A stretch of 38,137 nt of DNA from a virus. The notes beneath the pieces are model-generated. The model saw nothing but the letters and a program-made list of their open reading frames with translations. It searched no databases and was not told where the DNA came from. Every line of letters starts with the position of its first letter. The first letter of the stretch is position 1. Shown here one piece after another: positions 4,680 through 34,378 of the stretch. A program made the position numbers and the translations under genes. The stretch covers positions 1 to 38,137 of the IMG/VR virus record IMGVR_UViG_3300017732_000020; one strand, written 5' to 3'.

Positions 4680-7281
4680 TTTCTAAAGGGTCAAATCCGA
4701 TCAAAGCATTAGCACGTGCAGACCACTCAGCTTCAGCTTCATCGGTGTATGGAAGGTTAAGTGGTGGGGCAACATCAATAGCTACGCCGCGTGAATGTGC
4801 ACTACCAGTATCGTTAGGTCGCAAGTAAGATGTTACACGGTAGCCGTTTTGTTCAAACAAAAGCTTTGCAGCAGCAGCTTGTTGTTGAGTTGCAAACTCG
4901 TAGTGATTATGGTAATTCTTGCCACCATGACCACGAGGTCCGTCACCGTTATCATAGACAATACGTCCGTCAGTTTTGCCACGGATCGTAGGGTCACCAC
5001 TGACATATTGGACAACTTTATACATTGACGAACGGACCGGTGCAGATGCTCCAGTTTGAGTGTCTCCAACGTTTGCACGGCCAGTACGTTCTGGTGTGCG
5101 GAAGGTGTTGCGGATCTGGCTGTAAGGAGTTACTCCAAATTCACTGTAACGCCTTTTCTGCTCTTTATTAAGTGCGTCTACTTGCAGTGTAAGTTTGCCA
5201 TCACCAATGTATGGGGCAATGTCATTCAATACTTGCAGCGGGTTACGGTTAGTTGTTTCAGCAACATAAGCAATTACAGGTGGCATGTTCCACTGCTTTT
5301 CTGTGTAAGTTGTAAGTGCCTTTTCTATTTCCGCATGATTCATTTGTTGTGCAATCAGTTGATAACGCTGTGCAGCTGGTTTCGTGGTATCTCTAAGAAT
5401 ATCTCTAATTTTATTAAGCTGAGTTTTGCCAGTAGTTTGAGCTGTGCTTAGCTGCTGTTTTTGCTGGTCATCTGGTGATTTAATAATAAATTCTTTAAAT
5501 CCACCAGTTGGTGTCAACCCTGTCCGCAGCGCGTTTTCAATGTCAACATTGACTTTTGCCAAAGCTTGATCACGTGCCTTATCGAATGTAGCACCAGGGA
5601 CTGCTGAAAACTGTTGCAAATAAGTTCTATAGTTTTGCTTGAATTTATTTACTGCTAGGGTGTGGTTAACCTCATTCAATGCTCCGTACGTGCTAACATT
5701 GCTAAGAATTTCAGGACTGTTGTTAACAGTGCTTTCAATCATTGACATATGAAGCTGTGTCGTTGTATCTGCAAACAAACTATCAGATTGCTTGGCTAGG
5801 TTCATAGCACGATTTAGTGCCTCAGGGCTTTCATAATGACCACCTAGAACAATGTCCATGGTCAGACGTCCAGTTTTATACAGCTCGTCGTTAGTAGCCT
5901 TTGTTTGACGCCAACGCTGTGCATCAGAAGTGATACGACGTGCATTTTGCAACATCTTAGACTCACGTCCAAAGTAAAGAATAGTGCCACGGCTTTCAAT
6001 ATCTTTGACTTCTGCATCGGTCAAGTCACCGTCACCACCAAGCCTGTTCATTTCATCAACAACCCAAGCATCATATTCAAGCTGCTTTGCTTGTTCCTCT
6101 CTGTTAGCGTCTTGGTTTTGTCTAGTAACAATGCTGTTTTCAATGTCTTCTAATTCAGCAGCAAAGGTTGGAAATGATTCACGCAGTGTTTGTCCATTAG
6201 AACCACTACCTGGATAATCAAGAATTGAATCAATGACACCAGCTTCGAGAGCATAAGCACCACTTTCTTTTGATTTAGTTTCTAAATACTTACGAAGATC
6301 TTCCCGTTTTTGAAAGGAAGGATTTGTACTGTTCCAACGAATTAAACCTGCTACTTGGTCTTGGTTAAAAGCTACAGCAAATGCGTTTTGACGGTCTTGT
6401 GTGAGTTCTTTTTCTTGCAGTGCTCGTCTGTCTTTAAGAAAAAGGTTACGACGGTTACTGACCAATTCGTCTAGTTTCGCGTAGACACCAGCACCTGCAA
6501 GAACTTCAGGACGTGCTTGACCTACAAAGTTGACCTCCATAAACTCACGCTTTGCTTCAGTCAAGAAAGCGTCAAAGTCAGTGATAGGTGCGTTTTGTTC
6601 TAGCTCTTTAGCACGGATCTTTTGTTCAAGAAACTCCGGAAATTTGTTTAGGCTGTTTTGAAATAACTGTTTATGCTGTACCCAACGTTTTGTGTTCCGG
6701 TTTTGGTAGACCGCAAACATGCCATCAATAAGGCTAGTGTCAGCATCAGGTCCAAACATTTCTTGGACACTGTCTTGTGCAGCAAACTCTGAACGTGTTA
6801 GATTGTCGTCCATTTTTTGGTACGACACCATTTGATCATAAGTTACACCAGTCCTTGAAATGACGTCATGAGCAGCAGCAACTTTTTTCTCCTCTTGCTC
6901 CTGCATGTAGTCACCAAGCATACTAAAAGCAGTTTGGCTAAAAGCACTAATGTTGGCTAGATCAGTTTGTCTTGACTTGTTTTCAGCATCCAGATTATCC
7001 ATCTGAATTTTGTAGTCACGATCCAACGCATCCTTATAGGATTGCCGTTGCAATGACTGCATTCGGTAGTTGGTTTCGCGGTTAGCGTCTTCAGCAGAGT
7101 TGACTAGGCGTTGTGCACGCAAGTAAATCTGTTCGTTTTCTTTTGCGAATTCACGAGCACGTTGTACACCACGAACTTGTTTTTCTGTTTGTCGCTCAAT
7201 CTTAGCCGTTTGGTCTGGAACCCGAATTTGGAATTCACTAAAACTTCCTGGCTTAGAATATGTCTTATAATTTTTAGGCAT
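4672..7281 (-). CDS. internal virion protein, T7 gp15-like, with C-terminal peptidase M15-like domain
   Basis: This is an 869-residue protein with a long charged, Gln-rich helical N-terminal region (residues 25-600), in the gene 15 position. The last 120 residues differ: they include YHNHYEF (His791, His793) and then SAHSRGVAID at 827-836. The latter matches the S-x-H-x2-G-x-A-x-D zinc motif of D-Ala-D-Ala carboxypeptidase or endopeptidase families (M15, VanY-like). The usual later ExxH motif is not clear; EAEW is found where it might be expected. A murein-cutting role during DNA entry is an inference. It begins 13 bases after the gp14-like stop and overlaps the gp16-like gene by 8 bases. Confidence 0.78.
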   Translation of the reverse strand: MPKNYKTYSKPGSFSEFQIRVPDQTAKIERQTEKQVRGVQRAREFAKENEQIYLRAQRLVNSAEDANRETNYRMQSLQRQSYKDALDRDYKIQMDNLDAENKSRQTDLANISAFSQTAFSMLGDYMQEQEEKKVAAAHDVISRTGVTYDQMVSYQKMDDNLTRSEFAAQDSVQEMFGPDADTSLIDGMFAVYQNRNTKRWVQHKQLFQNSLNKFPEFLEQKIRAKELEQNAPITDFDAFLTEAKREFMEVNFVGQARPEVLAGAGVYAKLDELVSNRRNLFLKDRRALQEKELTQDRQNAFAVAFNQDQVAGLIRWNSTNPSFQKREDLRKYLETKSKESGAYALEAGVIDSILDYPGSGSNGQTLRESFPTFAAELEDIENSIVTRQNQDANREEQAKQLEYDAWVVDEMNRLGGDGDLTDAEVKDIESRGTILYFGRESKMLQNARRITSDAQRWRQTKATNDELYKTGRLTMDIVLGGHYESPEALNRAMNLAKQSDSLFADTTTQLHMSMIESTVNNSPEILSNVSTYGALNEVNHTLAVNKFKQNYRTYLQQFSAVPGATFDKARDQALAKVNVDIENALRTGLTPTGGFKEFIIKSPDDQQKQQLSTAQTTGKTQLNKIRDILRDTTKPAAQRYQLIAQQMNHAEIEKALTTYTEKQWNMPPVIAYVAETTNRNPLQVLNDIAPYIGDGKLTLQVDALNKEQKRRYSEFGVTPYSQIRNTFRTPERTGRANVGDTQTGASAPVRSSMYKVVQYVSGDPTIRGKTDGRIVYDNGDGPRGHGGKNYHNHYEFATQQQAAAAKLLFEQNGYRVTSYLRPNDTGSAHSRGVAIDVAPPLNLPYTDEAEAEWSARANALIGFDPLENE

Positions 7282-11596: not shown

Positions 11597-11628
11597 AAAA
11601 ATAAAAAAAGGGACCCCGAAGGATCCCT
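11597..11628 (-). terminator. rho-independent terminator after the capsid gene
   Basis: On the minus strand the sequence reads AGGGATCC, a TTCG tetraloop, GGGTCCC, then seven T and an AT-rich tail. The stem is about seven pairs with one G.T wobble, capped by a very stable tetraloop. It occupies the place of T7 T-phi, just after gene 10, and should boost capsid mRNA relative to tail mRNA. Confidence 0.92.
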
Positions 11629-11648
11629 GTATAAGTTGATTTAAATAA

Positions 11649-15166: not shown

Positions 15167-16738
15167 TTAGGTGGGTAGATCTTCTTCAGGTGGTTGTTGT
15201 GCCGCTTGTGGATTCTTTGTTGGATCCATCATTGGCGTTTTCAATGCATCAACGCTAAGCTTCTGTTGTTCAAGAAGCATTTGTTGTTGCATTGCTTGCT
15301 GACGTTCACCTTGTACTTCTGCCATAGAACGTACAAGATTCAGTACATCAATACCTTGCGATGCAGCTAAACGTTTGATGACTTCATCAGTGTTAATAAA
15401 TTGTGCAATAGCTTCAGGTCCTACAGTCTGTGCCAGTGTTGTCAAGAACGAACCAAGGCTTTCACGATCTTGGCCGCGGCCTAGTGCATTGACACCTGCA
15501 ACAATAGTAGGTTTGACAATGTTTTTAGGAATGCGTGGGATTTCACCCTTACGCTGTGCTTCACTAAGTTTACGATTTAGGTACGGAACAAGGAAATCAA
15601 CAGTCAGCAAACTGAACAGTCCACCAAGTTGTTTTTCCAATTCCATTTGTGTCATACGTACTTCTTCTGCAGTTGTACGTTCTGACTGTCTGACGTTAAG
15701 AATTAGAAACGCTTCACTAAGACGACGTTCTAATACTTGTGTCATTTCGAATGCAGTTCGAAAGTCTGCAGTCTTACCAACTTGCACAACACCTACATCA
15801 TCAGGACGACCCTGAATGATTGCACCGTTACCTGCAGCAGCAAGGGTGCTAGGTTTAGTTGTACTAGAAGGGCTGACAGTAAATACAACCTTAGCGGCTG
15901 CTGCACTGCCTTCTACCAAAGCTTGGCTAAGACCTTCCAACGATTTAAGGTCACCAATAAATTGACCAACTCTGCCACGTCCATAGCTTTCACCATCGAC
16001 TGTGTTGAATCTAAGGGCAATCCAAGGCGTGTTGTTGAGTGGTGATTTACCTTGTGAACCTCTGATGATTTTGTCAGATACCTCTTGGTGCCAAACAAAA
16101 CGGTTGTTGTCACGCTTGACATGTGTGTAGACATCAATGTCATCAGCGTATGATCCATCTTCACTAACACTTTTTCTGTCAGCAAAAAAATCTTTAGGTA
16201 ATTGATCCCGAAGGATTTGTTTTGAAATACGTTCTTTTGTAATTATTTCAACTACTTGACCGTTGCCGTCCCGATCCACAACGTAGCGATTCAAAGGATA
16301 GACTTTTAATCCATTCTTGCTCATAAAGATCATAGCGTTTCCTGCTACAACCAAATGCAACAAAGCCTGATGCACCGCAACACGGTCATCAGACGCTGCA
16401 ATTGATTCAAGAATAATACGCTCAATCTTTGCAAAAGACAAATCAAGTTCGGATTTAACTTGTGGTCCGAAGTCTTGACCCAGCTGACTTTCATCAAGCT
16501 GCAATTTAAAGAAACTGGTTTGTACAGGGAGTAGAGCCAACATCAACGCAGATGCCAGCGCAACACAACCCTTCGCCCCAACGCTTTGGTAAGGTGTCTT
16601 AAGTTGTTTCATGCCCATGGTATATTCTTCATGACCACGAATCAAGTATGGAAGTGTCAGTTCTGATGCTTGACGTGCTTCTTCAAGAAACTGGGAACGA
16701 TCGCTAGTTAAATAATCATATCGTGTACGTGCTGACAT
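15167..16738 (-). CDS. portal (head-tail connector) protein, T7 gp8-like, 523 aa
   Basis: Family landmarks are clear: YDYLTSDRSQFLEEARQASELTLPYL at the start, the GAKGCVALASALMLALLPVQTSFFKL helix near 55-80, then YGRGRVGQFIGDLKSLEGL and the ERTTAEEVRMTQMELEKQLGG helix. It ends in a Gln/Met-rich helix and a Pro-rich tail. It forms the dodecameric ring through which DNA is packaged. Its ATG overlaps the previous stop by one base and it ends two bases before the scaffold ATG. Confidence 0.95.
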   Translation of the reverse strand: MSARTRYDYLTSDRSQFLEEARQASELTLPYLIRGHEEYTMGMKQLKTPYQSVGAKGCVALASALMLALLPVQTSFFKLQLDESQLGQDFGPQVKSELDLSFAKIERIILESIAASDDRVAVHQALLHLVVAGNAMIFMSKNGLKVYPLNRYVVDRDGNGQVVEIITKERISKQILRDQLPKDFFADRKSVSEDGSYADDIDVYTHVKRDNNRFVWHQEVSDKIIRGSQGKSPLNNTPWIALRFNTVDGESYGRGRVGQFIGDLKSLEGLSQALVEGSAAAAKVVFTVSPSSTTKPSTLAAAGNGAIIQGRPDDVGVVQVGKTADFRTAFEMTQVLERRLSEAFLILNVRQSERTTAEEVRMTQMELEKQLGGLFSLLTVDFLVPYLNRKLSEAQRKGEIPRIPKNIVKPTIVAGVNALGRGQDRESLGSFLTTLAQTVGPEAIAQFINTDEVIKRLAASQGIDVLNLVRSMAEVQGERQQAMQQQMLLEQQKLSVDALKTPMMDPTKNPQAAQQPPEEDLPT

Positions 16739-25313: not shown

Positions 25314-25885
25314 TAGAAATCATCAAAGGCTTCGCCATTACTGACGTCGTTGACAACGTTAGGCTCGCTTTGCTTGTAACCTTTGGTTTTGCCAAACAAA
25401 TCTGCAACGTCAGTGTCGTCCATATCACCGACATCTGTACCAGCTTCAGATGAAACCGAGACAATCTGAACACCGACTAATTTAAGAGTAGTGCCATAGG
25501 TGACACCATCCTTTAAAACGTATGGCTTTTGGTAAAAGGCAAGCTTGACTTTGCTGCCGCTGTACACCGGGATGTTGTCATCAGTAATAACAGTCCCTTC
25601 AGTGTCTACAATGACAGGTTTGGTCTCGTCTTTCCACGAAAACTTGACTTTGTATTTACCCTGTGCAACTTCCTCCCAAGGTTCAGGCTTGAGGGTAGAA
25701 CGCTTAGGGTTTTTAAGTTTAGACTCAGCCCATGCAAGACTGCCTGGACGATCAGTTTCAAGTTGATCAACCATGTCATTATCGACAATGGCAGAAAGAC
25801 TGAAGCCAAATTTGTTTGGTTTGAGTACAGCTTGAAAGCCTTCAAGAATGACAGGCTCTTCAGTTTTAAAAATGGTGCGGGCCAT
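25313..25885 (-). CDS. single-stranded DNA-binding protein (T7 gp2.5-like), 190 aa
   Basis: The start MARTIFKTEEP overlaps the RNA polymerase stop by one base (TAATG), which favours it over an upstream TTG. The body has an OB-fold-like strand pattern (YKVKFSWKDETKPVIVDTEG, KVKLAFYQKPYVL). The C-terminal tail is acidic and ends in aromatic residues (NGEAFDDF), as gp2.5 needs for contacts with polymerase and helicase. It is slightly shorter than T7 gp2.5 (232 aa). Confidence 0.9.
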   Translation of the reverse strand: MARTIFKTEEPVILEGFQAVLKPNKFGFSLSAIVDNDMVDQLETDRPGSLAWAESKLKNPKRSTLKPEPWEEVAQGKYKVKFSWKDETKPVIVDTEGTVITDDNIPVYSGSKVKLAFYQKPYVLKDGVTYGTTLKLVGVQIVSVSSEAGTDVGDMDDTDVADLFGKTKGYKQSEPNVVNDVSNGEAFDDF

Positions 25886-28224
25886 TAACAAAAAAAGTAG
25901 GTGGAATGAATTACGGTTGACGGTTCTAAGTCACCGATAATTGGAGGTTTTGTTTCTGCACCGATTTGTTGTGCAAATGTTGTGAGGTAGTCATGCTCCG
26001 CAAATAGGTGCATGTATGTCTCACGAACAATGGCTGATAAAACACCCATGTCAGTAGCACGACATAGAACCGAGTCGTGTATGAGGGAAATCGGTGCGTC
26101 GAAACGGAATGTAGATAGACACAAGAGACTTGCATCAAGACTGTGGATAAGATTCGGAGCAGTAGCGTTTTTGTGATGTGCTTTGTCAACTTTGTCGGTG
26201 TCACCCGTAGCAACTTTGACTTGACATCTACCCAGTAATTGAAGATCAATACGCTGGGTTTGATATTTCATAAGACGTTGTGTAACAATAAAACCAGACG
26301 GTGTTACCCATTCGATTTGTTGTTCACCACGATCAATGGCAGCAGCTACTTCCTTTTCAATCCACTTCATTACACGCATCGGACCAGGAACAACCTCGTC
26401 CATAGCATTTCTAACAGCCTTGACTACTGCTGTCAGTTCTTCCTTTTTGACTTCAACACCTTTCTCTTTTAAGGCATCACGAATGTATGACCTATTGGAA
26501 TAAGGCTTAGCGTTGTAAGGAATTGTCATAACTGTTCGCTTGGTTACCTTCCGATCCATAAAAGGTTGGATCCTTTCTGGAACGTCTGGTTTTGCTTGTT
26601 CAGCTATAACTTTGTATGCGTCCTGTGGCTTGTCACCTGGGACAACATTGACTAACTTTGCAGTTGATTTGTCGCGTGCAAGTCCTGCCAAGATTTGTAA
26701 ACCTGAGCATGTTGCGTCTGTGGCAACCATCAAGTTTGTAAACTGACGGTTACAATCTATGACACAAGCATAGTATTCCTCACAAGCTGCAAGGAATTGC
26801 CAAGGTTCATCAGCAGCTTCCCATTCAGGTAAGTTGCCAATTGGATCTGTGGCTACACGTTTAATTAGATCGTGGTTGTTATCAACCCAGACCTGTCTGT
26901 CGTGCATTGTGTCTTTATCAAGACCATATGTTGTGGCAACCTGAAAGGCTAGCCAACGTTCAGACTCTGGGGTGACAAAGGCTGACACATGGAACTTAAG
27001 TAATGACTTTCCAAAGTCTGTGTCTTGTGGTGTCAAGAACGCAGGGATTGGGTAGACCCTGGATCTATAATCAAACGACCAAGGAATAAAGAACTTTTTT
27101 TTGTTCTTAAATACTTTGACAGCATTCATGGTCATCCGTGTCCTACAAGACTTTTGGAATGCTTGTGAATTGAGGTTCATAACCTCTGCTGCACGTCGCC
27201 TGTAATCCTTCCGAGAGTCGTAGTTCTCAGCGATGTCTACAGGCTTTGGTGGCAGTGGTATCTCAACCACAGGAACAAACTTTCCAACAGCTATACCCTT
27301 TGTCATGAGCGTCTCAGCAACACCCACTACAAATTGGTTTAGGGTGTAGGCAACCTTTTGAATCTTGTTCAAAAAAGCTATTGGTGTTTCTCCCTGTATA
27401 CGGGAGGGGTTACCGCGTCGTACCATGTCATAGCCTTTCATGACCTCGTTCAAGATGTATCCACCTTGAGTTTCATTAGACCAATCATTAGGTTCAATGA
27501 GCATCGGCCAAGCAATCGGACTGAATAGTTCAGCCGTTGCCATCACCTGGTCTTTAATGGCTATGAATTCAGGTGTAGGTACAACGTACGTGCGAGTCTT
27601 GCGACCCTCTCGCTGCATGTTTGTCATAAACCAATTGGAAGACAGACATATGCAATCAAGCAGCCAGCCACCTAACCGGATGCGGTTGGCACGTCCCCAC
27701 GTTTTCCAATGTTCGACATCACATCGATTCATCAGAGTCCGTATGACAACCACCTTTTGATGTGTGCCAATAGACTTGTGCCAATAGTTTTCCTTCAGGC
27801 TATGAAGTAACCCTGGCACGTTCGTTTCGTAGTGCCTCATCATGCACTCGTTTTCGATAGCCTTGCCGATGGCGTCTGTGACGCTTGATACAAGATTAGC
27901 TTTCGATTTAGTGCTAAAGACTTTGTCGAACGTGATCTTGCAAGCAATAGCTGCTGCGGCTTCAGGTTCTAAGTCTTTGAGATACTCATAAATCTCTTTG
28001 AAGTTGACACCCGCTTGTCCTTTGATCAAGCGTAGCCGAGTTGCATCAATACGACCCACCACGTGAGGGATAAGGTCCCTAATAGAAGCCACCCCGTAAA
28101 CGGAAGAACTTGCATAGCTTTTTTCCTCAAGGTTGCGTGTGTTTGCATGTAGATGATCTAGCCCTTGTCGGATTTGTTCTCGTTCAAGGGCAATTTGTTG
28201 ATCAATTTCAAATGGTGTCGGCAT
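25885..28224 (-). CDS. single-subunit DNA-directed RNA polymerase (T7 gp1-like), 779 aa
   Basis: Catalytic residues: Asp503 in VATDATCSGLQ (motif A), Lys562 and Tyr570 in TKRTVMTIPYNAKPYSNR (motif B) and Asp717 in SLIHDSVL (motif C). PWSFDYRSRVYP (around 381-392) and NLIHSLDASLL are also family blocks. The specificity-loop region (about 663-685) differs from T7, so promoters will differ. The protein is shorter than T7 RNA polymerase (883 aa), mainly at the N-terminus, and ends STYFFC rather than FAFA. It transcribes middle and late genes. The gene overlaps the small upstream gene by 17 bases. Confidence 0.97.
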   Translation of the reverse strand: MPTPFEIDQQIALEREQIRQGLDHLHANTRNLEEKSYASSSVYGVASIRDLIPHVVGRIDATRLRLIKGQAGVNFKEIYEYLKDLEPEAAAAIACKITFDKVFSTKSKANLVSSVTDAIGKAIENECMMRHYETNVPGLLHSLKENYWHKSIGTHQKVVVIRTLMNRCDVEHWKTWGRANRIRLGGWLLDCICLSSNWFMTNMQREGRKTRTYVVPTPEFIAIKDQVMATAELFSPIAWPMLIEPNDWSNETQGGYILNEVMKGYDMVRRGNPSRIQGETPIAFLNKIQKVAYTLNQFVVGVAETLMTKGIAVGKFVPVVEIPLPPKPVDIAENYDSRKDYRRRAAEVMNLNSQAFQKSCRTRMTMNAVKVFKNKKKFFIPWSFDYRSRVYPIPAFLTPQDTDFGKSLLKFHVSAFVTPESERWLAFQVATTYGLDKDTMHDRQVWVDNNHDLIKRVATDPIGNLPEWEAADEPWQFLAACEEYYACVIDCNRQFTNLMVATDATCSGLQILAGLARDKSTAKLVNVVPGDKPQDAYKVIAEQAKPDVPERIQPFMDRKVTKRTVMTIPYNAKPYSNRSYIRDALKEKGVEVKKEELTAVVKAVRNAMDEVVPGPMRVMKWIEKEVAAAIDRGEQQIEWVTPSGFIVTQRLMKYQTQRIDLQLLGRCQVKVATGDTDKVDKAHHKNATAPNLIHSLDASLLCLSTFRFDAPISLIHDSVLCRATDMGVLSAIVRETYMHLFAEHDYLTTFAQQIGAETKPPIIGDLEPSTVIHSTYFFC
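27389..27407 (-). repeat. 19-bp repeat copy A (inside the RNA polymerase gene), candidate phage promoter
   Basis: On the minus strand CCTCCCGTATACAGGGAGA, identical to 32550-32568. Here it encodes PSRIQGE in the polymerase. It ends like the T7 promoter start region (TATAGGGAGA) and can form a CTCCC/GGGAG hairpin. Codon constraint may explain this copy. Confidence 0.45.
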
Positions 28225-28351
28225 CCTCTGGTAGGTATTTAACTGAGTTCATGTCATCGATTTGTTCGTGCATTAACTCAATAATTTCTTCTTTGTGTGG
28301 ATGTTTATCCAACTCAGTGATGAGCCGTGCAAATTGCAAATCAGTCATCAT
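28208..28351 (-). CDS. small acidic hypothetical protein before RNA polymerase (47 aa)
   Basis: Starting at the double ATG 28346-28351 next to the preceding stop, the product is MMTDLQFARLITELDKHP followed by an acidic helix EEIIELMHEQIDDMN. The frame is open farther upstream (to 28408), but that part only overlaps the previous gene. It ends inside the RNA polymerase gene (17-base overlap). The function is unknown. Confidence 0.55.
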   Translation of the reverse strand: MMTDLQFARLITELDKHPHKEEIIELMHEQIDDMNSVKYLPEDADTI

Positions 28352-28655
28352 CAAACTCCTGTGATAGCTCGGGGTGCACGTAGTACAACGCTTCTTCAGC
28401 ACAGACAATTAACTCGTGCGTTTTGTAGGTCATGTATTGTTTAATCTTGTTTTCAGCGTATGACATGCGTTTGTATACATGTTCAGTGACTTTGCTGTTT
28501 TCAAGATTTGTGGCACGAATGACACATGTAACGTCCACGGGAAGTTCCCAACCAGCAACCTTCCATTCCATAAAATCTTCGTAGAAGATGGATTGAAACA
28601 TACTGGCTGGGGTTTCCTTGTACTTACGCCATTTATTCGGGAAATACTTACTCAT
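28341..28655 (-). CDS. hypothetical early protein (104 aa)
   Basis: Starts MSKYFPNKWRKYKETPA, has a central stretch WELPVDVTCVIRATNLEN and ends in an acidic SQEFDDD. The pattern KWRKYKETP, followed by a region on mRNA-level overlap with both neighbours (8 and 11 bases), indicates a coupled operon gene. No domain is recognised; a host-interaction role would be typical of this region but is not shown. Confidence 0.7.
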   Translation of the reverse strand: MSKYFPNKWRKYKETPASMFQSIFYEDFMEWKVAGWELPVDVTCVIRATNLENSKVTEHVYKRMSYAENKIKQYMTYKTHELIVCAEEALYYVHPELSQEFDDD

Positions 28656-28773
28656 CGATTAACCGTACGTCTAATAGTTCTGAAGCTTTGTCATTGGACA
28701 GTTCTAAGGCGTGCCAGGCGGCATCTTCAGGACTGGCGGCAAGAATGTAAATACTCTCGTCACTTAGACACAC
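28648..28773 (-). CDS. short early protein with probable GTG start (41 aa)
   Basis: The readable part is CLSDESIYILAASPEDAAWHALELSND, split here only by length, ending LLDVRLIDE. It looks like small cyanophage proteins that normally start MKxYEV-LSD. The codons for KSYEV are present just upstream, but no ATG precedes them. The first usable start is GTG at 28771-28773, one base after the previous stop. The frame is open to 29079, so a longer or fused form is possible. Confidence 0.5.
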   Translation of the reverse strand: MCLSDESIYILAASPEDAAWHALELSNDKASELLDVRLIDE

Positions 28774-28774
28774 T

Positions 28775-29002
28775 TCATAACTCTTTAGTTCGGTTCCGAG
28801 TAGCTCGTCTAGCCCGTCGTGGTTTTGGTTTAGCGGGTTCTCCGATATAGGATCCCCGTTCTGCCAAGTCCTTGTAAATGGAGTGCCATTTGTGCTTTTC
28901 GTCGAAGTAATACAACCAACAATGGATTGCATTACGGATGAAAAAGTCTTCATCCAACGCTTTTGCTTTCCCATCGTTAGCTGGTGCATTAGAAGTGGAC
29001 AT
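28775..29002 (-). CDS. small early protein, basic C-terminus (75 aa)
   Basis: Begins MSTSNAPANDGKAKALDEDF, continues FFIRNAIHCWLYYFDEKHKW and ends in an Arg-rich tail (KPKPRRARRATRNRTKEL). The ATG follows a TCACAATCACA leader by nine bases and is the first gene after the 29.2-kb terminator, so it starts the RNA polymerase transcription unit. No function is recognised. Confidence 0.7.
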   Translation of the reverse strand: MSTSNAPANDGKAKALDEDFFIRNAIHCWLYYFDEKHKWHSIYKDLAERGSYIGEPAKPKPRRARRATRNRTKEL

Positions 29003-29011
29003 GTTTTTACA

Positions 29012-29022
29012 TGTGATTGTGA
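29012..29022 (-). promoter_or_regulatory. TCACAATCACA leader element, copy C
   Basis: The 11-mer lies nine bases before the ATG of the 75-residue early gene. It is followed by ACATGTAAAAACATGT, a perfect 6-bp inverted repeat that includes the start codon, which could limit initiation. Confidence 0.4.
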
Positions 29023-29107
29023 AAAGAAGATATTCAATTTTCTAGGTTCTGCAGGAATTGAGCTATGCCCTTCCCGCACTTACAACATAGTGGCTATTGA
29101 CCGTGAG

Positions 29108-29136
29108 TCTATAAATCAATTGTTAAAGTGGCACAA
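29108..29136 (-). promoter_or_regulatory. possible host sigma-70 promoter for the RNA polymerase unit
   Basis: On the minus strand TTGTGC, a 17-base spacer and TATAGA lie between the terminator at 29.2 kb and the ATG at 29002. The -10 is good and the -35 is weak. Some promoter is needed here if the terminator is efficient, since RNA polymerase must be made by the host enzyme first. Confidence 0.35.
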
Positions 29137-29196
29137 GGCAAAAACCTATTTTGTTTGTTTCATGCTTTACAGGTTGTCTTTACATTGTATAGACAC

Positions 29197-29228
29197 AAAA
29201 AAAGACCCCCGCCGACACAGCAGGGGCC
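29197..29228 (-). terminator. rho-independent terminator between early block and RNA polymerase block
   Basis: Minus-strand GGCCCCTGC, a loop, GGCGGGGGTC, then seven T. The stem has at least seven pairs, mostly G-C. It lies 60 bases after the stop at 29290. Confidence 0.88.
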
Positions 29229-29289
29229 AAGTTCTCTCCCAAACCTATACTAGATACGTCCTTGTGTACTGTCTTGTGACACTTCGGGA

Positions 29290-29604
29290 TTAGGTGATCA
29301 TCTTAGTGTTTTCATTAGGTTCTTCATGTGCCTCAGGACCGAAACCCTCAGCAACAATCTGAGCTTTGTTGACAGTTGCAGGTTCAGCCTTAGCGTCCTT
29401 GTCAACAAATGAAGCAAACCAATCACGTAGTGAATCTCCTGTGGGTGTACCTTTAGGCCAAGAAATGAACTTGAGTGCTTTCTTAGTGTCCGTAAAACTA
29501 CAGCTGGTGTGAGGTTTCCAAACTGTGTAAGTGATGGGATGTCCCTCACGGTTGTGTTTGCGCTCAATCCACAAACCAGTCGCTGTGAAGTAATCAGATT
29601 TCAT
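29290..29604 (-). CDS. hypothetical early protein (104 aa)
   Basis: MKSDYFTATGLWIERKHNRE opens a probably beta-rich N-terminal half (HPITYTVWKPHTSCSF). An Ala/Glu-rich flexible tail with EAHEEPNENTKMIT follows. It is the last gene before the terminator at 29.2 kb and overlaps the preceding small gene by 11 bases. The function is unknown. Confidence 0.65.
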   Translation of the reverse strand: MKSDYFTATGLWIERKHNREGHPITYTVWKPHTSCSFTDTKKALKFISWPKGTPTGDSLRDWFASFVDKDAKAEPATVNKAQIVAEGFGPEAHEEPNENTKMIT

Positions 29605-29710
29605 TTACACACTTAATGTGTTTGATGTGTTGATCGACCCACTCCAGTGCTTCGTCCTGTTGCCAGTCAAACCAACAATCACTGACGATCGTGGTTAAGA
29701 CTTCTTCCAT
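29594..29710 (-). CDS. small acidic early protein (38 aa)
   Basis: ATG at 29708-29710; the product MEEVLTTIVSDCWFDWQQDE continues ALEWVDQHIKHIKCVNEI. It is helical and acidic with several Trp. It overlaps the upstream gene by 32 bases and the next by 11, typical for this tightly packed block. It fills a stretch otherwise without a gene. Confidence 0.5.
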   Translation of the reverse strand: MEEVLTTIVSDCWFDWQQDEALEWVDQHIKHIKCVNEI

Positions 29711-29885
29711 GTTTTTGCATTGCCTTAGCTTTGTTTTCAGCTCTTCGGAAACAATCATAAAAACTCCGTTCAAGTGTGGTTAATGGAATGGATGGGTCCT
29801 TGAGTGCAAGCCGTGCACGTTGTTTGGCTTTACTCATGTAATCCTTTGGGTTGTTATACCAATGGTTGAGACGTTCGTTACTCAA
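29679..29885 (-). CDS. small basic early protein (68 aa)
   Basis: MSNERLNHWYNNPKDYMSKA, then KQRARLALKDPSIPLTTLER and a basic C-terminus with KAMQKHGRS. It is strongly basic and likely helical. It overlaps the upstream gene by 8 bases. No family is recognised. Confidence 0.6.
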   Translation of the reverse strand: MSNERLNHWYNNPKDYMSKAKQRARLALKDPSIPLTTLERSFYDCFRRAENKAKAMQKHGRSLNHDRQ

Positions 29886-30057
29886 GCTGCTGTACAGTAG
29901 TGATCTGTACTCTAGACAAAGTTTTAGGTATTTCTACCAATGCCAGGGTTATGGCGTGGTTTGCTGACACAGCTTTGACCGTGACGTGTCCACTTGAACC
30001 TTGTCCCGTGGTGCGAATTTTGCCTGCATACTTGACAAACCATTTGTGAAAATTCAT
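29878..30057 (-). CDS. small early protein (59 aa)
   Basis: From ATG at 30055-30057: MNFHKWFVKYAGKIRTTGQG, then HVTVKAVSANHAITLALVEI. An upstream in-frame ATG at 30078 would add seven residues and overlap the previous stop. The second half looks like a short beta-alpha unit. The function is unknown. Confidence 0.55.
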   Translation of the reverse strand: MNFHKWFVKYAGKIRTTGQGSSGHVTVKAVSANHAITLALVEIPKTLSRVQITTVQQLE

Positions 30058-30070
30058 TTTTGTTGAGCGA

Positions 30071-30316
30071 TCAGCCAATCATTGAAGGTTTGAGACGCTC
30101 ACCATGCATCGTGACTACTGTGAAGCCTAGGGATTCAATCTTTGCGATGTCATGTGGCCGTAGTGTTTTGCTACATGTGAGTCCCTGGAATGTTTCGGCT
30201 TGGTCATTGACTGGATAGGCCAACGGTCTGCCGTACACTTGTTTGATTTCGTAGACAGCGAGGTGCGTGCCGTCACTGACTGATCGGGCGTGTTGTAGTC
30301 GTGTGATTGCGTCCAT
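30071..30316 (-). CDS. small early protein (81 aa)
   Basis: MDAITRLQHARSVSDGTHLA, then VYEIKQVYGRPLAYPVNDQA and ETFQGLTCSKTLRPHDIAKI. The ATG sits in a 24-base leader repeat shared with the gene at 30850. It is probably translated by its own leader, because 15 bases separate it from the previous stop. No domain is recognised. Confidence 0.65.
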   Translation of the reverse strand: MDAITRLQHARSVSDGTHLAVYEIKQVYGRPLAYPVNDQAETFQGLTCSKTLRPHDIAKIESLGFTVVTMHGERLKPSMIG

Positions 30317-30331
30317 GGGATGTGATTGTGA
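30308..30331 (-). repeat. 24-bp leader repeat, copy 2 (spans a start codon)
   Basis: Identical to 30842-30865. It holds TCACAATCACA, then TCCC, ATG and GACGCA, so it carries both the leader element and the first three codons (Met-Asp-Ala) of this gene. Confidence 0.8.
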
Positions 30332-30850
30332 TTATTTGGCAGGGATGCAGCCGTCAGGCACACCGCCAGCCGCGAGAACTTTTTTATCGATCTCTGGAAT
30401 AAATATACCTAGACCAGGATCTTCTCGCTTAATTAACATCGCAGGTGGTTGATTGCCACTTGCATTCATTACATAATCAACAAGTTTTTGATACACCTCA
30501 GGTGGTATATCTTTTGCATTATCATACTCTGTATCATGTTTGCGCCCGTAAAAATAAACACTACGAGAACCACATGAGTCAGTCCAATGCAATTTAAACC
30601 CGTTGTGTTCAAATGATTCAACAATCCCACCATGAGATCGTGAAACAATTACAACTTGCGGCCATGATGTCCTGGCTTTGTGCCATTCGTGGTTTAGTGT
30701 CCAGCTTTGACCTGCTGCCTCTGCTTTCGCAATGCGATCAGCACAGCGTTGCAGGATCTCTGCTTTTGTGTTACCAAACATTGTGCCGTTGCCGATCTTG
30801 ACAGACCAACGTTGTTTCATTCCTTTGAGTGGAATCATGGCTGCGTCCAT
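30332..30850 (-). CDS. hypothetical early protein (172 aa)
   Basis: The ATG at 30850 lies in the 24-base leader repeat; Met11 (MKQRWSVKIGNG) is an alternative. Segments WSVKIGNGTMFGNTKAEILQ, PQVVIVSRSHGG and HWTDSCGSRSVYFYGRKHD suggest a compact alpha/beta fold with several aromatic and Cys residues. It ends GGVPDGCIPAK. It is the largest early protein. No family is recognised; T7-like phages often encode host-takeover inhibitors here. Confidence 0.7.
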   Translation of the reverse strand: MDAAMIPLKGMKQRWSVKIGNGTMFGNTKAEILQRCADRIAKAEAAGQSWTLNHEWHKARTSWPQVVIVSRSHGGIVESFEHNGFKLHWTDSCGSRSVYFYGRKHDTEYDNAKDIPPEVYQKLVDYVMNASGNQPPAMLIKREDPGLGIFIPEIDKKVLAAGGVPDGCIPAK

Positions 30851-30865
30851 GGGATGTGATTGTGA
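30842..30865 (-). repeat. 24-bp leader repeat, copy 1 (spans a start codon)
   Basis: An exact copy of 30308-30331, ahead of the 172-residue gene. The element TCACAATCACA occupies 30855-30865, four bases before the ATG. Confidence 0.8.
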
Positions 30866-30872
30866 AGGTCAG

Positions 30873-30903
30873 AAAATATACCCGGCTTGAAATGTTGCCG
30901 GGT
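30873..30903 (-). terminator. hairpin with T-rich tail between early genes, possible weak terminator
   Basis: Minus-strand ACCCGGC, a ten-base loop, GCCGGGT, then ATATTTTC. The stem is seven perfect pairs but the T-run is short. It may attenuate or act as a processing site before the leader of the 172-residue gene. Confidence 0.5.
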
Positions 30904-30925
30904 TGATGTTACTTAGTGGTAAATG

Positions 30926-31267
30926 TTATGCAACAGGTTTAGCAATAGCTCGGCTTATTAAAATGTTTGCTGCTGCTTTACATGTACAAACACCGGCACT
31001 AAGTGACCACAACTGTCCCGTAGATTTCACCAGTTCGTTGTCAATCCACGGGTAGATTACGCGGGCTGCATCATCCCATCGGTTTAGTGCAATGGTGTTA
31101 AGTGCTGAATCTTCACGATGTGCCTTAACTAATTCTTCAGGGCTGAACTTGCCTGCTATGTATGAAACAATAGGCTCAATTGCAAACTGTTCATAAAATG
31201 CTTGGTGCATAGTGCTGCGCTCTTCGGAGTTACCTTGAAAGGCTAGATACTGTTTACGGGTGATCAT
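30926..31267 (-). CDS. hypothetical early protein (113 aa)
   Basis: MITRKQYLAFQGNSEERSTM, then HQAFYEQFAIEPIVSYIAGK and a C-terminal Cys pair (VCTC). It is helical and overlaps the preceding gene by four bases (ATGA). No domain is recognised. It is the end of the first coupled early cluster, before a hairpin. Confidence 0.7.
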   Translation of the reverse strand: MITRKQYLAFQGNSEERSTMHQAFYEQFAIEPIVSYIAGKFSPEELVKAHREDSALNTIALNRWDDAARVIYPWIDNELVKSTGQLWSLSAGVCTCKAAANILISRAIAKPVA

Positions 31268-31434
31268 GATTCAATGGTGACAATGTGGGCGTAGGATTCA
31301 GAATTGTTTTGCCTGAGTAGCTTGCATTCTTTACGGGCTAGGTCACGATCTTCAAAGGTTTCAAGCGTGATTGTCTTGTAATAACCAATAGAAGAGCCAA
31401 CAAAACGCCGGTCTCTTAGTTCGTAAAGCGTCAT
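31264..31434 (-). CDS. small early protein (56 aa)
   Basis: The ATG at 31432-31434 overlaps the stop of the GTG-started gene (ATGA), which is why it is chosen over the upstream ATG at 31566. The product runs MTLYELRDRRFVGSSIGYYK, TITLETFEDRDLARKECKLL and ends HIVTIES. The pattern is beta-beta-alpha-beta. The function is unknown. Confidence 0.65.
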   Translation of the reverse strand: MTLYELRDRRFVGSSIGYYKTITLETFEDRDLARKECKLLRQNNSESYAHIVTIES

Positions 31435-31550
31435 CGGTTGCACTCCTGGTAGGTTTTGTCGGTGTTGTTGGCACAGCTTAGGGCTGTTGTGTAGTCTGTC
31501 CAGATAGCAAGGGCTACAAGGGCAGTAGATAGGGCGAGCAGTGTTCTCAC
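31431..31550 (-). CDS. small secreted or membrane early protein with GTG start (39 aa)
   Basis: The GTG at 31548-31550 overlaps the previous stop (GTGA), and its TGA overlaps the next ATG. The product MRTLLALSTALVALAIWTDY has a hydrophobic segment at residues 3-17, then a short tail with two Cys (LSCANNTDKTYQEC). It could be a signal peptide plus a small disulfide-bonded domain. Tight coupling on both sides argues for translation. Confidence 0.55.
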   Translation of the reverse strand: MRTLLALSTALVALAIWTDYTTALSCANNTDKTYQECNR

Positions 31551-31747
31551 TGTGCACAGAATGCAAAGGGTAGATCAGGCAGGTCTAGGTTCCGGTCTGA
31601 GTGCTTACGGCGGATGCTGTAGATATGCATGTATCCACGGCATGAGCGACGGAGACGGAGGCGACGGGCTGCAGTGGTGACGTCGACGTATTCAGTGACG
31701 GGACACCAGCCATCATCACAGCCGAAGTATTGAAAGACGCGATACAT
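31547..31747 (-). CDS. first protein of the main early operon (66 aa)
   Basis: MYRVFQYFGCDDGWCPVTEY, then a basic segment (RRLRLRRSCRGYMHIYSIRR) and an acidic or aromatic end. It has four Cys. It follows the strong host promoter at 31.8 kb with a leader of about 45 bases, the position where T7 encodes its earliest takeover protein (gp0.3). No similarity to gp0.3 is seen. Confidence 0.6.
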   Translation of the reverse strand: MYRVFQYFGCDDGWCPVTEYVDVTTAARRLRLRRSCRGYMHIYSIRRKHSDRNLDLPDLPFAFCAQ

Positions 31748-31797
31748 GAGAGGGAGAGCAACACAGGTGAGTTGGTTTGGTCCGGTTGCTTACAGCC

Positions 31798-31826
31798 ATC
31801 ATTGCCCTGACCCTGACCAGTGTCAA
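31798..31826 (-). promoter_or_regulatory. strong host sigma-70-type early promoter
   Basis: Minus-strand TTGACA (31821-31826, a perfect -35), an exact 17-base spacer and AATGAT (-10, four of six). Transcription would start near 31790, about 45 bases before the first early ATG. Confidence 0.75.
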
Positions 31827-31836
31827 CCCTCAGTAC

Positions 31837-31875
31837 GATAAGTCTTGCTTATCACTAATGATAAGGCTGGCTTAT
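31837..31875 (-). promoter_or_regulatory. array of four GATAAG half-sites on alternating strands
   Basis: Half-sites lie at 31837-31842 (GATAAG), 31848-31853 (CTTATC), 31860-31865 (GATAAG) and 31871-31875 (CTTAT). Their spacings of 11, 12 and 11 bases are close to one helical turn. The middle pair extends to a 7-bp inverted repeat (31848-31865). The array sits 11 bases upstream of the -35 box. Confidence 0.55.
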
Positions 31876-32115
31876 GTGCCGCGACAGATTGAGTGAGATT
31901 GAGGGAGGCAGAGTACGGCACGGATCTGATACGGTTTTGTGTAGATATACCCCCTCCCCCTCTGCGTATCTGCATTACACACAGGTACGCGAAGCCTCAA
32001 AACACCAGTAATAGCAAGGGTTTACAGCTGCCAGGACCTGTTCTGGACTGGACAAACTGGACAAACAGGGGGGGTATAGGGGGGTACCGCGGCCACGCCA
32101 TCACGAGGATAGGCT
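31876..32115. other. non-coding stretch with G/C runs and short direct repeats
   Basis: No supported gene. It contains C-runs in TATACCCCCTCCCCC (31937-31951) and the facing G-runs near 32067-32083. It also has a GGACAAACTGGACAAAC direct repeat near 32047-32065. It lies in the region expected to hold a physical genome end. Confidence 0.5.
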
Positions 32116-32235
32116 TCACAAATTTCTGTCATTTTCTTGAGCCTTCTTCTTAGCCCAACACTTAAGACAGGTAACCTCATTAATCGGATAATTAATATTT
32201 ACCGGTACATCTACACCACATTCCTTACATTTCAT
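32116..32235 (-). CDS. very small zinc-ribbon protein (39 aa)
   Basis: The ATG at 32233-32235 follows a good Shine-Dalgarno (GAGGT, seven-base spacing), one of the clearest in the window. The product MKCKECGVDVPVNINYPINE is followed by VTCLKCWAKKKAQEN, so it has two C-x2-C knuckles 17 residues apart, a typical zinc ribbon. An in-frame ATG at 32265 would add ten residues but lacks a Shine-Dalgarno. It lies alone between the terminase gene and the early promoter, so on the linear genome it would be the first gene or sit inside the terminal repeat. A transcription-factor-like role is a guess. Confidence 0.65.
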   Translation of the reverse strand: MKCKECGVDVPVNINYPINEVTCLKCWAKKKAQENDRNL

Positions 32236-32462
32236 GCTTTTTACCTCATCTAATTGAAAGTCCATCTATTTACCGTTAATAGTGTTAATAGTATCCAGGA
32301 TACTGAATCCTTTTAAAAGGATCATCATTAAGCGATGATCGCTTTAAACCTATTCACCCTACTCTAAATACATATTAAAAGTATACTTTAATTATTTATT
32401 TAACCAATCTACTTAAAAGATTCACCCAATGTCCAAAAAGCGGACATTACTAGAATAAGTAA

Positions 32463-32515
32463 AGGGACTGGATTGTCTACTTAGCACCGTAGGTGCGGTA
32501 GACGGTCTAGTCCCT
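32463..32515 (-). terminator. 53-nt nested hairpin after the late operon
   Basis: Three stacked stems: AGGGACT/AGTCCCT, GTCTAC/GTAGAC and GCACC/GGTGC around a three-base loop, with small internal loops. It lies about 135 bases past the large terminase stop. The T-run after it is short (TTTA), so it may be a terminator, an RNase III-like processing site or a packaging structure. Confidence 0.55.
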
Positions 32516-32549
32516 AGCCACAGGAAGAATTGAGTCCACCCTTCTCTCC

Positions 32550-32568
32550 TCTCCCTGTATACGGGAGG
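32550..32568 (-). promoter_or_regulatory. 19-bp repeat copy B, candidate phage RNA polymerase promoter
   Basis: CCTCCCGTATACAGGGAGA on the minus strand, identical to 27389-27407. Only here is it non-coding. The ATACAGGGAGA end resembles the T7 ATAGGGAGA initiation region. A partial match, TTATACAGGGATCC, occurs at the capsid terminator (near 11619-11632). Confidence 0.45.
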
Positions 32569-32650
32569 TCTTAAGATAAGACAGGTTAAGACAGTAGGTT
32601 ATGACTGGATTGTCAGGTTGCGCCTGCGGCGCTTAGAATGGCTAATATAT

Positions 32651-34378
32651 TTAGCGAATTGTCCACTTGTGAACGAATGTTTGTCTAGCTTGTTGTCTTT
32701 GGTCTTTATTGAGACCCAAAACAAGATGATTAGCTGATCCTTGGGGATCTTCAATAGATGCACGAAGTATGTCGTTCCATTCTTCACGTTTTCTTTGGTT
32801 GACAGCTTCTTGAGCCGAGATAGACATACAGTCAGTGAAGTATTTGACACCTTGAGCCAGTGCATCGAGCCGGTCGTCATGCTTGACGGCACCTTTTTCA
32901 CGACACATCCGAGACATCTGGTAGAACAGCATGTAAAGAAGACGTTTTTCGGGTGCTTCGTCTTTGTTCGACTTGTAGTCCCAATCAATGACGTCTTTGT
33001 CAACCACCAATCTGTGTTGGTTCATAATGGGTTCAAGGGCATCAATGATGCGGTCTTCTTTGCGTACGTTGGCACGGACCTCTTCAACGTCTATTGCTTG
33101 TTTAGTTTGTTGAAGGTGTTTTTTAAACAGCTCAGCTACGATGCCATCACCAAAGTTAGTCTCAATAACGAGTTTAGTTACGTTGTACTTTTTACAGTAT
33201 CTTAGAATGTCCAATAGTGTGTTGTCTGAGTATCCATCCTTGTAAGCACACATTTGGTGCAAGTACAAAAAACCATTTCGTTGGGATATAAAAGCTGCAG
33301 CCGTTTCATCTGTTCCTCGACCCGACGGGTCAACACTGCAGATTGTTTCGGCGTAAGGATGCCATTCTCCTTGGAGTTGCATTGGAGAGTAGAAATAATC
33401 TCCAGGAAGACCGACTGTTGGTAATTCTTTGATGACGTTTCTTGGGTCTGAGCACCAGATAACGGAGTCAGGAGCGGTAGTAGGATTAACGGCAGTGACG
33501 ACAAGGTCAGCCATTTTAAGGGGGAATTTTTCACTGTCACTAAGGGATGTATCCAGCATAAACTGGAGAAGGAAATTGGAACGTCCCATAGCTGCTTCAC
33601 GTTCAATAAGGTCATTATCAGCGAAGCGATCAGGGTCAGTAACGTTCCACGGTTCTGCACCGTTGTCTATGTCGGCCACCAGCTGCGGCGCTAAGAGGCC
33701 TTCGTACTGGCTAACCTTCCTAGGGTACCTAGCAGGCCAAATAAAGGGCTTGTAGGACCTCTCAGCTAGCTTAGAATAGACAGTAAAGGATGTTTGAGGG
33801 GTACCAAGGTAACAAATACGGCTATCTGCTTTAGGAGTAAGGATAGATTCAGCTTCTGTACATAGTTGAAGTAGTTTTTCTCGCATGAGTTCGGTCATGG
33901 AGTTACCTGGTACTTCAATGTCATCAAGAATCATTAAGTCAGCACGGCTACCAGTAAGTTGACCAGTAATTCCCACTGATTTAACAGACGGAGCTTGGTG
34001 AGGACTGCAAAGCACATCAAAAGATATGCGGGACCAACGGGCGTCATCAGATTTAGGACGCAAATAAGCCAACCACGGTGTTTCAATGATTAGTTTTTGT
34101 AGGAAGATAGACATGTTGTCAGCACGTTCTTTCGACGCACTGATAATCATTATCTTTTTTTCAGGGTTATTGAAAAGCGTCCACAGAACAAAGGCTCCAG
34201 TAATCCACGATTTTCCCACACCACGGAAAGCTTGTATTTGTAGACGTTTAGGTCCATGTTGAAGATAGTCTGCGATTGCATACTGGGCACGGGTAGGGGA
34301 GGGCAGATCAAGCTGCTGCCACAATGCTTGCAGGAACAGCTTGAAATCATTCTGTAACGCCTCAAGGACGTTGTTCAT
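32651..34378 (-). CDS. terL: terminase large subunit (T7 gp19-like), 575 aa
   Basis: ATPase: Walker A FRGVGKSW (51-58) and Walker B ADLMILDDIE (Asp152, Asp153), preceded by the AQYAIADYLQHGPKR helix. Nuclease: SVDPSGRGTDETAAAF, LVIETNFGDG and HDDRLDALAQGVKYF supply the acidic metal-binding residues. It packages DNA through the portal and cuts concatemers. It is the last late gene; after it comes the region of the genome ends, as in T7. Confidence 0.96.
   Translation of the reverse strand: MNNVLEALQNDFKLFLQALWQQLDLPSPTRAQYAIADYLQHGPKRLQIQAFRGVGKSWITGAFVLWTLFNNPEKKIMIISASKERADNMSIFLQKLIIETPWLAYLRPKSDDARWSRISFDVLCSPHQAPSVKSVGITGQLTGSRADLMILDDIEVPGNSMTELMREKLLQLCTEAESILTPKADSRICYLGTPQTSFTVYSKLAERSYKPFIWPARYPRKVSQYEGLLAPQLVADIDNGAEPWNVTDPDRFADNDLIEREAAMGRSNFLLQFMLDTSLSDSEKFPLKMADLVVTAVNPTTAPDSVIWCSDPRNVIKELPTVGLPGDYFYSPMQLQGEWHPYAETICSVDPSGRGTDETAAAFISQRNGFLYLHQMCAYKDGYSDNTLLDILRYCKKYNVTKLVIETNFGDGIVAELFKKHLQQTKQAIDVEEVRANVRKEDRIIDALEPIMNQHRLVVDKDVIDWDYKSNKDEAPEKRLLYMLFYQMSRMCREKGAVKHDDRLDALAQGVKYFTDCMSISAQEAVNQRKREEWNDILRASIEDPQGSANHLVLGLNKDQRQQARQTFVHKWTIR

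Follow-up and report, generated by a model that had tools for sequence, protein, structure and literature searches.

Why should a phage genome carry the same 19 bases twice, once within the gene for an RNA polymerase (RNAP) and once just beyond the gene for the terminase large subunit (TerL)? In the window, by which we mean the whole stretch of 38,137 nucleotides analysed here, CCTCCCGTATACAGGGAGA occurs exactly at 27389-27407 and at 32550-32568, both on the minus strand, which is the gene strand. The first copy lies inside the ORF 25885-28224(-) for a single-subunit T7-type RNAP of 779 aa (PHROG 414, E=2.7e-223; T7 RNAP chains, E about 1e-58). The second lies outside ORFs of at least 80 aa, 83 nt below its upstream neighbour, the 575-aa TerL ORF 32651-34378(-) (PHROG 38, E=3.3e-117). 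A search allowing up to three mismatches found no third site in the window, and the whole record gives the same result. Among the RNAPs listed, the closest to that of the window come from an uncultured marine phage and from Synechococcus podoviruses such as S-RIP2 (75%), and the window is therefore taken to be a T7-like cyanophage. The initial annotation had proposed that the repeat could be a promoter for the phage's own RNAP. That proposal has gained support from comparison of sequences: the 19-mer is very probably the core of only two strong promoters for the phage-encoded T7-type RNAP, and the RNAP that holds the internal copy presumably reads both.

The two-promoter plan with an intragenic copy is already published for the cyanophage Syn5, whose two promoters, read by its RNAP, are described in PMC3950665. 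In the Syn5 record, the promoter string occurs at 4929, in RNAP codons aligned with the window copy, and again at 44797, only 6 nt downstream of the TerL stop. Because it occupies the same codon and the same place downstream of TerL, the two window copies are positional counterparts of the two published promoters. As in Syn5, there are exactly two copies on the gene strand, one at the homologous RNAP codon (by codon alignment and local translations) and one just after TerL, where the presumed transcription start lies 93 nt after the stop in the window and 10-67 nt after it in 26 other genomes. The arrangement is the same and the sequence is another: both Syn5 copies read ATTGGGCACCCGTAA, whereas the window has TAACCCCTCCCGTAT in the RNAP gene and TAAGACCTCCCGTAT after TerL. 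The promoters of the two phages have in common mainly CCCGTA at -7 to -2, and the Syn5 RNAP is only 38% identical to that of the window.

Numbered by this alignment, the RNAP-internal promoter would extend from -15 to -1 over 27398..27412 (-), within RNAP codons of residues 271-276. Its start would be the A at 27397 (-), since the Syn5 promoter ends in ...CCCGTAA before the initiating base. The TerL-side promoter would cover 32559..32573 (-), with its start at the A of 32558 (-). In both, +1 is probably the first A of ACAGGGAGA. The end of the 19-mer had been read as matching the T7 initiation context, and an exact match was not upheld; GGGAGA probably stands at +4 to +9 and not at +1, because both the codon alignment with Syn5 and the TerL-side 5' hairpin, which starts at the A of ACAGGGAGA, place it there.

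The position of the TerL-side copy resembles that of T7 phiOR, 99 nt downstream of gene 19 in the T7 record. Among the T7 promoters, phiOR and phi1.1A are the nearest parallels. In sequence and number, the window departs from the class of T7 phi promoters, with its T7 consensus and many dispersed copies: the T7 record annotates 17 phi promoters, as against two promoters of another sequence in the window. A host sigma-70 promoter at the TerL-side copy was rejected, as a consensus scan of 28000-33000 listed no site overlapping 32550-32568. The claim of a shorter relative of the repeat at the capsid terminator also failed. This relative, TTATACAGGGATC at 11622-11634, has 3 mismatches in 13, and 11 such sites, including the two exact 19-mer copies, compare with 7.07 expected, which is not significant. 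It covers the first arm of a GGGATCC-TTCG-GGGTCCC tetraloop hairpin together with the 5' flank, and a T run follows the hairpin. The hairpin, at 11603..11634 (-) after the capsid gene, is a probable terminator outside the promoter system, and it was discarded as a third promoter on both grounds.

Occurrence of the pair among relatives

The window was compared with 26 genomes (25 isolates and one metagenomic fosmid genome) by matching each RNAP gene to the 460 bases around the TerL stop and recording the best 24-base match. In 27/27 genomes this match, with 18-24 identical bases, joins one and the same RNAP site to a place at -7 to +78 from the TerL stop. By local translation, the RNAP site has a common peptide context in every genome, even in the four whose RNAP record is frameshifted. 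Relatives thus keep the places of the two copies, and the sequences differ from genome to genome. Control windows were drawn outside the RNAP gene, the TerL region and, in 7B11-B and S-B28, the third copy; they gave 16-21 identical bases, and 23/27 genomes exceed all 40 of their own controls. In the remaining 7B11-B, S-B28, DSL-LC07 and NATL1A-7, the pair does not score above these controls and is recognised by position only. Aligned to the Syn5 start, the two copies of a genome agree at 11-15 of the 15 bases from -15 to -1, but of the five bases further upstream (-20 to -16) they share only 0-4. With up to three mismatches allowed, 24 of the 27 genomes contain two copies and no more. A third, weaker copy was seen about 1.3 kb after TerL in 7B11-B and S-B28, and at 16404 in S-CBP2.

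The exact 19-mer is found in 20 IMG/VR contigs, in the RNAP gene of 18 and after TerL in two (L005 and L010); in 16 of the 18, the RNAP is only about 63-66% identical to that of the window. This sample was chosen by the 19-mer itself, and less biased tests were therefore added. RNAP relatives were taken as the best 80 of at least 599 and the best 80 of 171, that is, the nearer relatives, and one seed peptide for the first of these sets lies just upstream of the promoter site. A scan with the Syn5 RNAP gave 2 loci. Of 35 further IMG/VR loci that combine an RNAP copy with a TerL end, 33 were scored. The match exceeds the locus's own background in 29 of them and is level with it in L204 and L224; no TerL-side copy was found in L182 and L193.

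The internal position is not shared by the outgroups. In T7 and the pelagiphage HTVC011P, the counterpart of the TerL-side copy follows immediately on the RNAP gene (22/24 identical) and is not found inside it (16 and 18 identical). Vibrio phage phiV141 has a copy neither in nor after its RNAP gene (17-18 of 24 identical).

Constraint and co-variation with the polymerase

Constraint on the coding copy was measured in a codon alignment of 102 of 107 RNAP genes; S-TIP37, S-CBP3, NATL1A-7, P-SSP3 and L205 were dropped for a frameshift or stop. Codons 273-277 (three scored columns) form the strongest synonymous-constraint window of the gene, with a codon identity at conserved amino acids of 0.94 against a mean of 0.46 (sd 0.09; 726 windows, 4063 pairs). 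Ile276 is encoded by ATA in 81/81 weighted sequences, and ATA makes up 19% of Ile codons gene-wide. The promoter itself is varied, with 55 distinct sequences from -12 to -1 in the 102 genes. A single-sequence fold of the RNAP reached a mean pLDDT of 35.5, too low to be of use. The alignment-based model reached a usable 82.3, with residues 260-275 below 50 and followed by a helix at 279-289. Since the low pLDDT may reflect promoter-driven variation, the model does no more than suggest a loop at residues 260-275.

These results bear on the caution, voiced in the initial annotation, that the repeat might be due to chance or preserved by nothing but the coding constraint within the RNAP gene. One copy is indeed coding and encodes the conserved residues I-Q-G-E. 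Two copies of the 19-mer, however, compare with 0.02 expected by chance, and two were reached in 0/100 shuffles. The second copy lies outside annotated coding sequence and still matches the first, the codon of Ile276 is fixed beyond what its amino acid demands, and the pattern is repeated in 27/27 genomes with different sequences. On this evidence we reject chance and codon constraint, which we regard as extremely improbable.

RNAP windows of 15 residues were scanned in 74 dereplicated sequences, leaving out the promoter site and removing overall divergence. The stretch that promoter distance follows most closely is residues 654-674 (r 0.35; mean 0.008, sd 0.091 over 721 windows), which correspond to the specificity loop by alignment to T7 RNAP. 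A fixed window at 652-667 gave r 0.17 with a permutation p of 0.0005, the smallest possible. There is a second peak near residues 196-216, which, from the alignment to T7 RNAP, we take to be the intercalating hairpin region. The top pairs by mutual information (66 sequences) are -8/668, -15/68, -5 and -6 with 210 and 205, -4/178, -13/70, -10 and -11 with 660, and -9 with 666. Residues 660, 666 and 668 align with N748, R756 and Q758 of T7 RNAP, which contact -10/-11, -9 and -8, respectively, according to PMC5937735. The co-variation is consistent with T7-like loop contacts at -11 to -8. At the pair -4/178, G occurs with Arg in 45 and T with Ile in 16 of the 66 sequences, and no known T7 contact was matched to it.

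The RNAP of the window carries D660, R666 and Q668 in its specificity loop, and the bases from -11 to -7 are CCCTC in the RNAP copy and ACCTC in the TerL copy (CTC at -9 to -7). Asp660 would read CC at -11/-10, Arg666 the C at -9 and Gln668 the T at -8. In T7, too, the residues aligned with 666 and 668 are Arg and Gln, and the promoter bases at -9 and -8 are C and T. T3 has the promoter core CCCTC at -11 to -7 and the RNAP triad Asp/Arg/Gln, so that core and triad match those of the window, a likeness that we treat as a lead only.

The 66 sequences define a code between residue 668 and base -8: Q/N with T, K/V with A, H/R with C and E with G. This code predicts base -8 in 76 of 77 further P-SSP7-type RNAPs outside the 66, and in 32 of the 33 distinct promoter/residue combinations among them (permutation p 0.0002). 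The 77 are not fully independent of the code, as they include relatives up to 96% identical to P-SSP7, which by its 58% identity met the inclusion limit of the 66-sequence set. Four of the 102 further loci were dropped: L296 for a stop, L005 and L010 for want of an RNAP, and one that has no promoter site. The prediction test left out L302, L286 and L305, which have the names or lengths of the P-SSP7, P-SSP2 and Syn5 records. Loci L001-L020 fit the code in 18/18 cases; they do not vary and therefore test nothing of it.

Base -8 is also coding in the RNAP copy, and the code was therefore retested on the TerL copies. It holds in 46 of the 51 with a coded residue and is broken in 5, and 5 more of the 56 lie outside the code. 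This retest decides against a further reading, in which the co-variation would come from a protein-protein contact of residues 274/275 with 668 rather than from the reading of bases. Bases -8 to -5 do double as codons of residues 274-275, but the TerL-side copies obey the code outside the RNAP gene, and residues 68 and 70 in addition co-vary with -15 and -13. Such a contact was rejected as the cause on the TerL-side copies, and we give it very little credence.

The history of the code was followed on a tree of 164 RNAPs built without the promoter site and specificity loop. There are 42 edges with a change at base -8 and 48 with one at residue 668; 33 edges have both, compared with 6.2 expected. 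Of these joint edges, 31/33 follow the code and 2/33 involve an alignment gap at 668. The switches that follow the code include eleven in which T becomes A as Q becomes K, and nine in which C becomes T as R becomes Q. Base -8 changes without residue 668 on 9/42 edges, and the residue without the base on 15/48. Residue 668 has a co-change fraction of 0.69; the 407 other columns that change at least 10 times reach 0.46 at most. Sequences with a coded residue fit the code in 154/159 cases. The parsimony counts are approximate because one arbitrary resolution was used. Signal and polymerase therefore appear, from these sequence comparisons, to have changed together many times among related virus genomes. 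Asn668 was considered as a promiscuous intermediate and dropped, since the discordant copies differ at -7 and not at -8.

Direct repeats are also typical of DNA sites for recombination, integration or packaging (att, pac or terminase sites), and one copy lies near the genome end beside the terminase gene. Against this, bases -8 to -11 follow the RNAP specificity loop, in a scan that covered the RNAP. The Syn5 copies are called promoters in PMC3950665, where the RNAP-gene copy served as a transcription template. Four linear records were found to have terminal repeats, and in these the TerL-side copy lies outside the repeat, 1.0-1.4 kb short of the right end. A DNA site instead of a promoter is thus a most unlikely explanation, and we retain that of a promoter pair read by the phage RNAP.

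Predicted RNA hairpins at the probable transcript starts

The predicted TerL-side transcript begins with a hairpin at 32520..32558 (-), which has a 10-bp stem from +1 and the conserved loop AAGGGTGGA. A second, terminator-like hairpin follows at 32464..32514 (-), where GGGACT...AGTCCC precedes the T-rich stretch TTTACTT. Both were studied in 58 TerL-side sequences, from the 27 genomes and 31 loci. The 31 were taken from the 33 loci by a copy matching at least 11 of 15 bases, with the occurrence preceding the loop motif chosen where the 15-mer was duplicated; none lacked the loop motif, and L286 duplicates P-SSP2. The loop is GGGTGGA in 48/58 sequences, AGTGGTGC in 9/58 and neither in 1/58. A stem of at least 6 pairs from +1 or +2 is present in 52/58, compared with 669/5400 random sites. 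This hairpin, which would start with the transcript, supports the placing of +1.

Covariation in the stem is seen in two classes of relatives, represented by twelve sequences chosen for equal stem and loop length. In the Syn5 class (six sequences), all cells of the arms pair and 6/8 pairs change on both sides, and 0/500 shuffles reach either value. In the main class (six sequences), all cells pair, as reached by 3/500 shuffles, and 3/8 pairs change on both sides, as reached by 92/500. A search of 31500-32700 against Rfam 15 families gave no match up to E=1. The second hairpin with a T-rich tail follows the first in 52/58 sequences, compared with 134/540 random stretches, and a short transcript may therefore be made at the TerL-side promoter. 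The phi10 transcript of T7 also folds into a hairpin from +1. These features suggest that the TerL-side hairpin either protects mRNA at its 5' end, like that of the phi10 transcript, or belongs to a short RNA.

In the clade of the window, the RNAP-internal transcript possibly has a 5' hairpin of its own at +23 to +43 (27355..27375, -). In 88 distinct RNAPs, a mean of 7.44 of its 8 pairs can form, compared with 5.79 (sd 0.10) after synonymous resampling, a procedure that ignores relatedness. The hairpin is not general: only 4/8 pairs form in 16/18 of L001-L020, and the mean is 5.9 in P-SSP7-type phages. No consensus structure emerged from RNAalifold for the RNAP-side transcript (-0.94). A hairpin at this place fits the synonymous constraint seen on RNAP codons 282-291.

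Proposed transcription from the two promoters and its possible meaning

The order of transcription can be proposed as follows. The host polymerase would read the early region first and make the RNAP. By analogy with Syn5, the RNAP would then start at A27397 in its own gene and read through the replication and virion genes. A second start, at A32558 shortly downstream of TerL, would send transcription towards the genome end; on concatemers, it might continue into the early region and RNAP gene of the next genome. The internal start would give no complete RNAP message, and therefore no feedback on RNAP synthesis.

The T7 end promoters phiOL and phiOR have a role in priming DNA replication or in concatemer processing. 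The promoters of the window could likewise be selected mainly for such a role and not for mRNA. The TerL-side copy is placed like phiOR, and a short structured RNA could arise there. Against this, a single Syn5 promoter transcribes more than 37 kb, as stated in PMC3950665, and where a genome has only two promoters, most of the mRNA must come from the internal one. A main role in replication is thus rather unlikely, though less so than the other alternatives considered, and it is compatible with the preferred reading of both copies as promoters of the phage RNAP.

A broader interpretation is offered tentatively and seems to us possible rather than probable. Cyanopodoviruses may have a re-keyable transcription lock, in which the polymerase gene carries, at one fixed codon, the promoter that its product reads. 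The polymerase, the embedded promoter and the TerL-side promoter would have been re-keyed in step about thirty times. The short structured TerL-side RNA, with its conserved GGGUGGA (or GUGGUGC) loop, would have its own role at the genome end in packaging, replication priming or RNA protection. Re-keying in step, if true, would insulate co-infecting relatives from each other's polymerases. Each such ocean phage would also state the promoter of its own polymerase twice in its genome, and matched polymerase-promoter pairs could therefore be read directly from sequence. The co-evolution of promoter and polymerase would become testable on natural pairs, and many candidate orthogonal polymerases would be at hand. 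An evolutionary question is raised as well: by what path could residue 668 and the -8 bases of both promoters, three sites in all, switch as one and avoid a dead intermediate? What the end-of-genome promoter does might be learned from the conserved 5' hairpin, a lead that can be checked.

The promoter specificity of T7-like RNAPs has reportedly been read from phage genomes, to go by the title of Zhu J. et al. 2025. Among the matches listed, titles and the starts of abstracts showed nothing on the extent of the two-promoter plan across cyanophages, on co-switching or on the hairpin, a weak negative with that study and Zhu et al. 2013, on the Syn5 promoters, outside its scope.

Two other features of the region between the promoters were observed. 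From 31567 to 32549, about 1 kb between the TerL-side promoter and the first early ORF has no gene-strand ORF of at least 80 aa; this stretch may hold the terminal repeat and host promoters. An exact 24-bp direct repeat at 30308-30331 and 30842-30865, 534 bp apart, lies at the ends of ORF 30332-30850, and in L010 the start of that gene occurs twice.
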